Shown here in pieces: positions 19,511 through 31,324 of a stretch of 64,000 bases of DNA. The translations under genes and the position numbers were made by a program. The stretch comes from Rhodoferax sp. GTDB taxonomy: Bacteria > Pseudomonadota > Gammaproteobacteria > Burkholderiales > Burkholderiaceae_C. Positions within the stretch are counted from its first letter, which is position 1; every line of letters begins with the position of its first letter. The stretch is taken from assembly GCA_020048895.1 (NCBI GenBank), contig JAIFLV010000010.1, positions 1-64,000 on the forward strand, written 5' to 3'. The notes below the pieces were generated by a model. It did not search any database. It saw only the letters and a program-made list of their open reading frames with translations, and had not been told where the DNA came from.

Positions 19511-20203
19511 TCAGACAACTTCCCGTTCAGGTTGATCCGCCGTGGGGTTCTGGGAAGCACCAGGCAACGCAGGTTTTGGCGCGCGCCGGGCACGCTCCAG
19601 GGTGCGCGCTACATCGTGCGTGTCCATCCCGTACGTGTCTGCAAATGCGTCCATCGTCTGGCCGCTGGCGGTAAACGCTCGCAGCAGGGCTTCACCACGG
19701 GCCGCACGCTCCTGCGATTGCGCCAGCGCCTCATCGAGCAGTGCATTGGCGGCAGGATCTTTGCTGTGCACCAGGGCCGCGTAATCCATGCCAGTCAGAC
19801 CTGAATCTTCAAAGGCTTGAATGACCCGCTCCAGGAGCTTCGGACGCAAGTCTTCCTTGCTACGCATCTGTCTGCGACGAAACACCTCCAGCAACGACTG
19901 GTAGATGTGTTCAGGTGCCATGGGTTCCACCGCCTGCCCTTGCAGATCATGGCGCTGCTGCCCCGAGGCCACCGCCGTCAAATACCGGGTAGAGCGGGTG
20001 TGCAGAGCCAGCGCGGCCTTGAGCTGGCTGCGCTCGCACAGGTCCGGGTGTGCTTCGAGCAGGTCCTGGAAAATACCGCGCTTGAGCGGCAAAAAAACTG
20101 CGCCAAACAAGTGGGGATACAGCGCTGCCAGCTTGTCCAGCAGCGGGAATACGTCAACTTTGGCAGGCTTGGGGGCTTCGACAGTGGGTTGTGATTCGGT
20201 CAT
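19511..20203 (-). CDS. proQ: ProQ/FinO-family RNA-binding protein
   Basis: LLDKLAALYPHLFGAVFLPLKRGIFQDLLEAHPDLCERSQLKAALALHTRSTRYLTAVA, core of the ProQ/FinO domain. Confidence 0.9.
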   Translation of the reverse strand: MTESQPTVEAPKPAKVDVFPLLDKLAALYPHLFGAVFLPLKRGIFQDLLEAHPDLCERSQLKAALALHTRSTRYLTAVASGQQRHDLQGQAVEPMAPEHIYQSLLEVFRRRQMRSKEDLRPKLLERVIQAFEDSGLTGMDYAALVHSKDPAANALLDEALAQSQERAARGEALLRAFTASGQTMDAFADTYGMDTHDVARTLERARRAPKPALPGASQNPTADQPEREVV

Positions 20204-20679
20204 AGCCCTCCATCATGCCTCATCTCACTCCCCAAAAGCCCGATCCCATCGCGCCAGGGTGCGATTCAAAGCAATGTGGCATCGGGCAGAGATGGCTAGG
20301 AGCTTTTGCGTCCCAATTGCTGGGGGCTAAAGGCGAAGTAGCGAGATTCCGCCCCGCCTCAGCCGGAGAAAATTGTGCCGAATCGGGTTATAGCGCCCGT
20401 AGAACCTGCGTGAGCTGCTCCTATTTTTGCTGCGCTGCGAAATGTAATTGGGTGGGTCGCCAAGTGTGCCGGGGCGGCAGCGACTGCGGGTGTTAACGAA
20501 GAGCGGCTATCGGACTTACCCAGTTGAGTGAAAGCCGAGACCTCACGATGTGAGCGTCAGACAAATACAGAAACGACTCTAGCTTGACGCGATTACGTAC
20601 CGACACGCTGAGCGCTAACGAAAAGTGGTGCCGGAGTCAGTGATTCGACCAAGCGGTTCGATCTTCGAGGAGACGCACA

Positions 20680-26825: not shown

Positions 26826-27701
26826 TCAGGGCTTCCAACCACCTCGAAATGTGGTTGCCAGTTTTTTGACGTCGTCTTTGTCAAGGCTGCCATCGCTGGT
26901 CATCGTGGACAAGGTGTTGCTCATGCTGCCGAGCAAGGTCGAAGTCACCACACTGCCATTGGCCAAGGTCTCCACAGCGGCAGAAGAAGTCTGCAACAAG
27001 AGCTTCGCAGCATTTTCCAGTTGTGCCTGTTGGGTTGGCCCGTAGTTGGCATCGACCGCGGCATTTGCTTCTTTGGTGGTCAAGGTGATCGGCGTAGGAG
27101 TTTGCACTACGCTTGCCAGCACACGTGTGACCTGTACGGCAGAAGCCACAGCCACTTCCTTTTGCAGGGCTGGGCTCAGGCTGGTGGCGGAGGTGCCGAC
27201 AGGCACCAGCATATTGAGCGCCGCATCGCCGGCTTTCACCAGCGTCATGTAATTTGGGCTGATACCGCCAGTGGCCGCAGCCTCGTAACCGGCCATACTA
27301 TAGACGCCGTAGAGCTTGGCATTGGAATCCGTGGAGCCATTCGCCACGACGTTTAGCGACGCGCTATCCATGAGAGCGTCTTTTGCGTAGGCTAGCCCAA
27401 GGGTTTGCACCACATCCTTGTTATAGCCTGCGGCGGCCAGGACCGCCGAGGCCTCACTGATGGCCTTTGCCGCGTTTCCGCTGGCGAGAGAGGTATTCGC
27501 GGTGGCCAGGGCCTTGGTTTGATCTGCCGTCAGGGTGGCGGACGGCAACTGGGTATTGATAGGGGCGCCAATTGGCACCGCTTCTTCGTTGGCGGCGCCG
27601 CAGGCCCCAAGCAGGCCGGCCACCAGTAATGCCGCCCACGCGCCGGGTTGCCGCAGCGGGAAGGTGATGTGTCGGCGAAGCGTCAAAGTGGAGTTCGTCA
27701 T
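26826..27701 (-). CDS. Predicted secreted lipoprotein of unknown function (291 aa)
   Basis: Signal peptide with lipobox LVAGLLGAC|GAANEE; no recognised domain. Confidence 0.7.
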   Translation of the reverse strand: MTNSTLTLRRHITFPLRQPGAWAALLVAGLLGACGAANEEAVPIGAPINTQLPSATLTADQTKALATANTSLASGNAAKAISEASAVLAAAGYNKDVVQTLGLAYAKDALMDSASLNVVANGSTDSNAKLYGVYSMAGYEAAATGGISPNYMTLVKAGDAALNMLVPVGTSATSLSPALQKEVAVASAVQVTRVLASVVQTPTPITLTTKEANAAVDANYGPTQQAQLENAAKLLLQTSSAAVETLANGSVVTSTLLGSMSNTLSTMTSDGSLDKDDVKKLATTFRGGWKP

Positions 27702-27717: not shown

Positions 27718-28848
27718 TTAAGAGCCGGCGCCGGTAAGAGCCAGCAGTTGCCCGATCGCTACCGTGCTGATGGAGGTTTGTCCGCCAAACGTGATTTTCA
27801 AGGAGACGGTGGCCGCCGTCCCCGGGTTGGCGGAACAGGTTACGGAAGGCACATCCTTGTCAGTGTCCGTTACTTTGCATTCAGCGGTTGCTTTTTCGAC
27901 GAGATATTCGACCTTGTACGCCGCGCCGAACGTCGAACCTTTGGCGTTCAAAGCAAAGGGCTTCCCAACTTCGAGCCTGCCGGTGGTAGTTCCAGGCACG
28001 AGCCTGGCGAGGGGGGCAGCGGCTACCGTGATGGTTGCTGACGAGCTATTCAGCGTAGTGCCTGCTGAGTCCTTGAGGGTGCCCTGCAGGGTGTATTCGC
28101 CGGCTGTAGGCAGAGCAGAGGCGGCCACCGTGACGGTTCCCGAGGTGGTTTCGTCCGTCGTGCAGGTGGTATTGCTGGGAATGCTGGCATTGCTGCAGGT
28201 GGTTTCGACCGTAGTGGTTGTGACCGTGGACTTATTCAACAGCGTCCAAGTCACTTTCTTGGCTGCTGATTTTAGCGGCGCGTGGGTGTACTCGGCGCTG
28301 AACGCACTGCCGATGACAGCCGTTGCCAGCGGGTTGGTTATGGCAATATTCGTGCGACCATCCTTGATATTGAATTTGGTCGTTGTCGGCTTCAGACCCC
28401 CTCCAGCGGTGATGGTCATCGACGAGGGGGTCGTACCCTTGGCAGCCAGTTTGTCATACAGGATGGTATTGAGAGGGATAACTACTGTCTGACTTCCCGG
28501 TGTACTTGTACTAGACGCTGTTGTGACGCCCTCCAAATCGCCAACGCCTGTCTTTGAACAGTTCAGGTTACCAAGCGGACAAGTAAATGTTCCTACGTCG
28601 GAATCATTTATCTTTATTGCGTATGTGGGGTCGTCAATAGATCCGCTTCTCATTTGGCTGACCAACTGATACTGACTCGACTCATCGACAACGGTGTAAG
28701 TTGGTGTGGAGGCCGCGGCGGCGGTGGGTTTGGCCGGGGCGGGGTCATCACCACACGCCCATAGCGTCCACCCGTACATCAACGCCAGCGCATAGATGAG
28801 CACAAAGCGAAATCCTAAGGGTTTCTGTCGTAGCAGCGGCATTTTCAT
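27718..28848 (-). CDS. Predicted secreted/lipoprotein with Ig-like repeat character (376 aa)
   Basis: Signal LIYALALMYGWTLWAC|GDDPAPAKP; Thr/Ser/Val-rich beta-type sequence with GEYTLQGTLKDSAGTTLNSSSATITV; 16 bp upstream of the 26826..27701 gene. Confidence 0.7.
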   Translation of the reverse strand: MKMPLLRQKPLGFRFVLIYALALMYGWTLWACGDDPAPAKPTAAAASTPTYTVVDESSQYQLVSQMRSGSIDDPTYAIKINDSDVGTFTCPLGNLNCSKTGVGDLEGVTTASSTSTPGSQTVVIPLNTILYDKLAAKGTTPSSMTITAGGGLKPTTTKFNIKDGRTNIAITNPLATAVIGSAFSAEYTHAPLKSAAKKVTWTLLNKSTVTTTTVETTCSNASIPSNTTCTTDETTSGTVTVAASALPTAGEYTLQGTLKDSAGTTLNSSSATITVAAAPLARLVPGTTTGRLEVGKPFALNAKGSTFGAAYKVEYLVEKATAECKVTDTDKDVPSVTCSANPGTAATVSLKITFGGQTSISTVAIGQLLALTGAGS

Positions 28849-29034
28849 GGCAAGAGTCCTGTCTGAGTGGATTGCGCTACGAATGTATCAAGCACAGGCC
28901 AAGCAAGCCTTAGCGGGCATAACTCAGTAGCTTGGGATCGATATTACCGCAACGTTAGTCTTGTGTGAGGCTGCAGCGTTGTTTTTTTTTGACTGGCCTA
29001 TAACGAAAGCGTAAAGCTAAATTGCAGGGTTGGG

Positions 29035-29154
29035 GTCGTGGACAAGGTGTTGCTCATGCTGCCGAGCAAGGTCGAAGTCACCACACTGCCATTGGCCAGG
29101 GTCTCCACAGCGGCAGGTGAAGACTACACCAAGTGCCTCGCAGCACTTTCCAGT
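29035..29154 (-). pseudogene. 120-bp remnant duplicating part of the lipoprotein gene at 26826..27701
   Basis: Aligns without indels to 26903..27022; the first ~80 bp is almost identical; contains an in-frame TAG. Confidence 0.85.
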
Positions 29155-29508
29155 GTGCCGCAGCAAATGAGATCGGGTGTAGGGCAACCCCGCTCTGGCA
29201 TAGGCTTGGCGGATGGTCTTGCGTACGAGATCAGCGCCAACGGGTTCGTCGCCTGGTGCAGTGACGCGCACGAAGACCGCACGGTTGGTGGTTCTGGGGC
29301 GCTCCTGCTTGAGGTAAGCCGCGATGGCCTTCCCTGTGGTTGCTGGAAGCGGTAGAACATCTTCGCGGCCGCCCTTGGTGTGGCGCAGCGTCACGGTGGC
29401 TGCGCGCCAGTCAATATCATCCAAGCCGAGTTGGGAGACCTCGACGCTGCGAAGACCCAGATCGAGTGCAAAGCGCACGATGGCGTCGCCGCGTCGCATC
29501 GAGCAGAG
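29155..29508 (-). pseudogene. Tyrosine recombinase/phage-integrase core fragment (lacks N-terminus and catalytic Tyr end)
   Basis: RRGDAIVRFALDLGLRSVEVSQLGLDDIDWRAATVTLRHTKGGREDVLPLPATTGKAIAAYL...LVRKTIRQAYARAGLPYTRSHLLRHT; sequence then changes abruptly to the lipoprotein remnant. Confidence 0.85.
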
Positions 29509-29656
29509 CATTGGCGGCAGCATCTTTGCTGTGCACCAGAGCCGCGTAGTCCATGCCCGTCAGACCCGAATCTTCAAAGGCTTGAATGTCCAACAGCGGG
29601 AATACGTCAACTTTGGCAGGCTTGGGGGCTTCGACAGTGGGTTGTGATTCGGTCAT
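29497..29656 (-). pseudogene. Truncated, internally deleted proQ copy
   Basis: MTESQPTVEAPKPAKVDVFPLLD|IQAFEDSGLTGMDYAALVHSKDAAANALLD: identical flanking segments to intact proQ with 104 codons missing; coding then runs into recombinase sequence. Confidence 0.9.
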
Positions 29657-29752
29657 AGCCCTCCATCATGCGTCATCTCACCCCCTAAAAGCCCGATCCC
29701 ATCGTGCCGGTAGGCGATTCAAAGCGATGTGGCACCGGGCAGAGGCGGCTGC
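29587..29752. repeat. Direct repeat of the proQ 5' end and upstream region (copy 2; copy 1 at ~20134..20299)
   Basis: Colinear by-eye alignment at constant offset of 9453 bp including proQ start and ~95 bp upstream. Confidence 0.88.
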
Positions 29753-30091
29753 GGGTTTACGGCGAGGTGACGGATGTACTTTTTGAGTGTGTTTCGGGGC
29801 TTGGTGTATATCAAGCAAAGCTTGATTGCCGTGCCACTCGTTGTTCTGGTGTCGGTCTGCATGGTGGCTCCAACTCGGGCAGATGAGCCACTCCAAGTCC
29901 AAAGATACGATGATGCTGACGACTTTTTGCCGTCAGCTGAAAGAAAAGACAAAGATGGCCCTCGGGAAAGATGGCATCCGGTTCATGGAGCGCACGTCAT
30001 CTAGTGCTGCATGCAAAGCAATATAGGACTACGGATGGGGCAGTCCGTCCAATAAGCTCTTGTATTTTTTATCTACAAAGGTTGCAATTGC

Positions 30092-31324
30092 TTAGGGAGC
30101 AGTGCGGCCGCTCATCCCGAGTGCTTTGCCGACGGCCCAGCTGTTTAGCCGATGGCGCAGCGTCGTGCGCGTCAGGGTGAGTGATTCAATGTCTAATGGA
30201 GCCAGAGTCAATGAGCGATAGCCGTCTGCGGTGACAAGCACGGTGTCGCTGTGCCGGTAGCCGCCGACCCCCTGTTCGTACAAGCCAGGCTCTATGGAGA
30301 TCACCATGTTCTGTTGCAGTACGTGCGTACTGCCCTCAGCAATCCATGGTGCCTCGTGATTGCCCAAACCGAATCCGTGTCCGCATCGGTGCAGACGGGT
30401 CTGAAATTCGGCGAACCCGGCGTCGCCCAGGAACCTGTTCACTGCAGCGTCAATCTCGGCACACTCCATGCCGGGCCGAATCAGGGCGAAGGCGATTTTC
30501 CGTGCACTTTCAATCAAGCAAAACATGTCGCGCTCGTGCGATGTTGGAGTCTGGGTGAAGAAGGTCCGCTCGCTCTCAGCTGCGTAGCCGTTTACGCGTG
30601 TGAGGACCATCGCGACATGAGGCCCCCCGCGTAAACGATCCGTCAGTCTGGGTACAGAGTGCGGCTCGGCACTGATCGGGGCGGGCCAAGCGCCCGCAAT
30701 GACCTTGGTTGCCAGCGCATCCCAATCGGTCACCTCACGTATGATTTTTCTCTGCAGCGATTGGCTCGGCATATAGGTTTCTGCTGCACTCGCACCGTTC
30801 CAGGCCTTGCGAAGAATTTCGTTGACGCCCCAATCCGCATACCGTGCGGCCCGCTCGATCTGCACGATCTCCCCACGGGACTTGACCATGCGCAGTTCAC
30901 CGATGGGGTCAGACGCACGTCCGCCGGACTTAAGCAAAACAGCAGCAACGCTCAGAGGTGTGCTGTCATCAAAACCAAAGCTGGATTCGCTGAGGTTGGT
31001 GTTCAGCAGCTGTTCGGCCCACCCTTGGCCAGGCGGCGCTGGGAACTCGCGGTATGTCAACACACAACTGGCTTCGATCCCCCATGCCTTACCCATGTGA
31101 TCGCGCTCCATTGCGGGCACCAGCATGCGGCGCGAGCCGTCAGCGCCGATGATGAGGAAGAACGGACGCTCCAGCGGCTCGAAAGTAGCCCCCGTCAGAT
31201 AAAAGATGTTATCGGTGGTGGTCGCAACAAAGTGGTCGAGGTCTGCGCTGCGAATCGCTTTGACCAACGCGTCATGTCGACGACTGTATTCGATGATTTC
31301 TAAACCATTAAAGTTGCGATTCAT
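30092..31324 (-). CDS. M24-family metallopeptidase (Xaa-Pro aminopeptidase/creatinase-like)
   Basis: N-terminal DLDHFVATTTDNIFYLTGATFEPLERPFFLIIG; LHRCGHGFGLGNHEAPWIAEGSTHVLQQNMVISIEPGLYEQGVGGYRHSDTVLVT. Confidence 0.88.
   Translation of the reverse strand: MNRNFNGLEIIEYSRRHDALVKAIRSADLDHFVATTTDNIFYLTGATFEPLERPFFLIIGADGSRRMLVPAMERDHMGKAWGIEASCVLTYREFPAPPGQGWAEQLLNTNLSESSFGFDDSTPLSVAAVLLKSGGRASDPIGELRMVKSRGEIVQIERAARYADWGVNEILRKAWNGASAAETYMPSQSLQRKIIREVTDWDALATKVIAGAWPAPISAEPHSVPRLTDRLRGGPHVAMVLTRVNGYAAESERTFFTQTPTSHERDMFCLIESARKIAFALIRPGMECAEIDAAVNRFLGDAGFAEFQTRLHRCGHGFGLGNHEAPWIAEGSTHVLQQNMVISIEPGLYEQGVGGYRHSDTVLVTADGYRSLTLAPLDIESLTLTRTTLRHRLNSWAVGKALGMSGRTAP

Follow-up and report, generated by a model that had tools for sequence, protein, structure and literature searches.

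Relation to deletion scars and RIT elements

Short-homology (illegitimate) deletions are known to leave scars in bacterial pseudogenes. The Rhodoferax locus described here, located within a 64-kb window (the whole stretch of DNA analysed, 64,000 nucleotides of one contig), resembles these scars in its 2-5 bp joins and its collinear, truncated genes. It differs from the usual ones in being an unusually clear mosaic, with three joins within about 440 bp.

One of the joined pieces is related to recombinase-in-trio (RIT) elements, the published architecture of which is a three-gene array of ritA, ritB and ritC (PMC3414803, PMC2864759). The core of this piece is 68-85% identical at the amino acid level to the products of trio-heading ritA genes, mostly of Burkholderiales, but only about one quarter of ritA is present, without ritB, ritC or the ends of the element. 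Broken RIT elements, with genes missing or truncated, also occur on pHG1 and on plasmid 2 of A. aromaticum EbN1, where a trio is interrupted by an IS copy (PMC3414803). Unlike these, the Rhodoferax fragment is fused to pieces of chromosomal housekeeping genes.

The recombinase sequence lies within a minus-strand ORF of 168 aa (29523-29017), which, as the initial annotation proposed, is a chimera that starts in a proQ remnant and passes through a tyrosine recombinase core; its start is out of frame with proQ. The ORF matches the Pfam Phage_integrase profile (E = 1.9e-13) over only positions 25-135 of 172 and thus encodes a core fragment. Homology to ritA extends from 29502 to 29153, in an open frame, and corresponds to codons about 259-375 of 425. 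The 117-codon core shares 81% amino acid identity with residues 259-375 of a 425-aa recombinase of another Rhodoferax (genome G082); identities to the closest intact copies reach 84% (nucleotide, locus L106) and 85% (amino acid).

In Rhodoferax, Limnohabitans and other Burkholderiales, intact relatives of the fragment stand at the head of ritA-ritB-ritC trios, and nucleotide identity to these trio-heading genes is 78-84%. Among the relative loci that we retrieved, ritB follows ritA in nearly all and ritC is present in most. As its nearest intact relatives are the first genes of three-recombinase arrays, the piece is assigned, by sequence similarity, to RitA of a RIT element, which bears out a resemblance suggested in the initial annotation. 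A RIT element has a size of ~3.5 kb and terminal repeats, and its three recombinase genes point the same way and adjoin, overlap or nearly overlap. Neither ritB nor ritC was found beside the fragment at the mosaic site, and we therefore describe it as a RIT remnant rather than as a RIT element.

The fragment retains GLRS, TKG and HLLRH, the motifs of the first Arg, the Lys and HxxR. Both ends are missing, as had been noted: the first 258 codons, including the N-terminal domain, and the final ~50, a segment that in relatives reads HRSLNTT-IYAKLD and includes the catalytic Tyr. The set of Arg, Lys, HxxR, His/Trp and Tyr that an active tyrosine recombinase carries in one catalytic domain is thus incomplete. 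In comparison with intact relatives, dN/dS is about 0.17, and the private changes of the fragment comprise 14 synonymous and 9 nonsynonymous substitutions, so it has not long been decaying as a free pseudogene.

Searches of the source genome (91% complete) identified no intact RIT. Another contig carries a second remnant (C47:5809-6565), in which ritB is reduced to its end and ritC to its first half, both interrupted by a stop. Its ~40-56% identity to the G082 proteins indicates that it derives from a different type of RIT.

Anatomy of the mosaic

The mosaic comprises four pieces, all on the minus strand, and spans 29750-29036, beyond the limits of the ORF first reported. It is situated between a lipoprotein-like gene at 28848 and an M24 peptidase gene at 30092. 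Broken remnants of a second proQ, of ritA and of a copy of a lipoprotein gene are present, joined at 2-5 bp, and a hydrolase-like piece adjoins them. BLAST against the source genome recovered the proQ and lipoprotein relationships named in the initial annotation, and resolved the proQ remnant into two parts (E = 9e-48 and 3e-34 for proQ, 1e-44 for the lipoprotein piece).

The first part of the proQ remnant (29587-29750) includes 94 bp of upstream sequence and codons 1-23, and is 92% identical to 20134-20297 in the intact resident proQ region (gene at 19511-20203, minus strand). The upstream region, the start codon and a Shine-Dalgarno-like GGAGG are retained. The second part (29491-29591) covers codons 128 to about 152 and is 91% identical to 19726-19826. 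The offsets of the two parts from the resident gene, 9453 and 9765, differ by 312 bp, an in-frame loss of 104 codons. The ProQ domain occupies residues 20-117 of the resident protein; the deletion, of codons 24-127, removed nearly all of it, and the remnant lacks the domain that defines membership of ProQ/FinO.

The lipoprotein-gene remnant (29036-29159, minus strand) corresponds to codons about 227-266 of an intact resident gene (27701-26826) and is 92% identical overall to 26903-27027. Its distal 63 bp are identical to the resident gene; the proximal part is about 75% identical and has one stop in its own frame. Substitutions are mainly amino-acid-changing. The piece is probably the remnant of a paralogue, and the identical tract perhaps reflects gene conversion. 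No relatives of the intact gene were identified in 102 other Rhodoferax genomes. The remnant sits 2 kb from the intact gene. The chimeric ORF ends out of frame with respect to this piece, as previously described, and it continues past it into flanking DNA.

Also present is an N-terminal remnant of a hydrolase-like exported protein (29774-30001, plus strand), which faces away from the proQ remnant. Another Rhodoferax has a full-length gene to which it is 78% identical across 59 nt, beyond which homology ends. A hydrolase gene head-to-head with proQ was not found in two genomes that carry close homologues.

The three internal joins have little sequence in common: ~2 bp (CA) between the proQ parts, 3-5 bp (from ATG to CGATG, according to which ritA relative is chosen as parent) between proQ and ritA, and ~4 bp (CACA) between ritA and the lipoprotein piece. 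Order within each gene is collinear. The source is a draft genome of 188 contigs that appears to be metagenome-derived, and a misassembly in this single draft was considered. It is the least probable of the explanations that we weighed: any assembler overlap would be far longer than the sequence shared at the joins (at most about 5 bp), divergence of 8-9% from the resident copies shows that the pieces are not misplaced reads of them, and the mosaic is internal to a 141-kb contig. When that contig was compared with itself, the proQ and lipoprotein pieces were the only repeats involving the window, which rules out the mosaic being one of many such structures on the contig. Outside the window, contig positions 120472-120548, 124712-124767 and 135526-135596 carry members of a repeat family (~55-75 bp, 79-91% identical) that occurs in both orientations.

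The chimeric ORF is open over 168 codons, with no stop in its ritA part, and the ribosome site and start of proQ are kept, as might be the case for an expressed gene with a function, such as a small protein of the recombinase core or the N-terminus of ProQ lacking its RNA-binding domain. We regard this as very improbable, because the retained proQ start opens a 79-aa ORF (29656-29417, minus strand) that runs out of frame into ritA, in a frame other than that of the chimeric ORF, because the catalytic Tyr is missing, and because the chimera is conserved in no relative. Conservation across several species, which the initial annotation had named as an argument for a real gene, was sought in 103 Rhodoferax genomes and 401 genomes drawn from the family. 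No chimera was identified in any of them and a conserved chimera is thereby ruled out; the other matches were either short and weak or to ritA or proQ at loci of their own.

Probable origin by successive deletions

We conclude, with a probability of roughly 0.8, that the segment is a scar within a graveyard of pseudogenes, eroded by microhomology-scale deletions. Three neighbours in the same orientation would once have occupied the site: a second copy of proQ, a RIT element and a paralogue in tandem with the lipoprotein gene. Short-homology deletions, one after another, would then have cost proQ its ProQ domain, ritA both of its ends and its partners ritB and ritC, and the lipoprotein copy most of its length. 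That a frame stays open across the joins would be an accident, with the ritA part young enough to be still open, and no active recombinase would be made. This origin is suggested by the collinear pieces on one strand, their 2-5 bp joins and the retention of the proQ upstream region and start. Signs of decay, namely the substitutions in the mosaic proQ and the nonsynonymous changes and stop in the lipoprotein piece, point the same way, as do the loss from ritA of its ends and partners, unlike in nearly every relative, the presence of a second broken RIT elsewhere, and the absence of the chimera from the genus and family genomes. Each step tested agrees with the initial view of a recombination scar rather than a functional gene.

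Among Rhodoferax, proQ is single-copy wherever it was found (38 of 103 genomes), ruling out a genus-wide second copy. Given this pattern, and a resident proQ neighbourhood that is the same as in another Rhodoferax genome (G025), we take the resident copy as native and the mosaic copy as extra. When the substitutions were polarised against G025 (the outgroup), 13 of the 15 fell in the mosaic copy and 2 in the resident one, which fits a decaying copy. Derived sites in the remnant number 4/158 in coding and 9/94 in upstream sequence, so it was probably under constraint for part of its history. Changes between the pieces and the resident copy are mostly synonymous, as would be expected if the pieces came from a functional proQ of another species; that idea is weakened by the outgroup placement of most changes in the mosaic copy and by the small counts.

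Several observations count against serial deletion. The 63-bp identical lipoprotein tract requires recent conversion or another cause, and the coding parts of the proQ remnant changed little in comparison with its upstream part. No RIT element adjoining proQ was seen in the flanks of the relatives examined, where the initial annotation had proposed to look for full-length recombinases; thus, no intact precursor was found. Nor were intermediates found, whether with an intact duplicate proQ or with a RIT next to either proQ or the lipoprotein gene, and we therefore infer the order of events. The mosaic remnant is the sole trace of the duplicate, since each Rhodoferax genome in which we found proQ has a single copy.

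Alternatively, the proQ/ritA/lipoprotein patch may have arisen all at once, through a microhomology-mediated event with several templates in which neighbouring genes and a RIT were partly copied, by template-switching replication repair or by illegitimate insertion of joined short pieces. Two source genes within 10 kb, 2-5 bp of microhomology at the joins and pieces of only 100-350 bp favour such an event. We consider it unlikely, as the proQ piece has kept order and strand and carries its upstream region too, and as a fourth remnant adjoins, all of which are more simply explained by serial deletion. The pieces are also 8-9% diverged from their sources, so any single event would be old and its traces blurred. 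To our knowledge, one-event mosaics of this kind have rarely been documented in wild bacterial chromosomes, and a literature search of limited extent found no paper on short-patch double illegitimate recombination with microhomology.

Annotation and RIT arrangements in relatives

The mosaic is an ordinary scar, with little significance beyond annotation: an ORF with a good integrase-domain match can be a scar and should not be called a recombinase. It is also a record of a second proQ, since lost, and of a RIT that was once present in this genome, in which our searches found no intact one.

RIT loci in relatives show arrangements of their own. In Rhodoferax G082, two different RIT elements adjoin on one contig (C240, 3-5440; locus L017), with ritA proteins about 50% identical. 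In Limnohabitans MMS-10A-192 (L071, 2181-8484), a RIT trio directly follows a 975-aa putative Tn3-family transposase, as judged by eye. A RIT on a Rhizobacter contig (L076, 835-5624) is apparently interrupted, with the shortened ritB of one copy preceding part of a further ritA, ritB and ritC.
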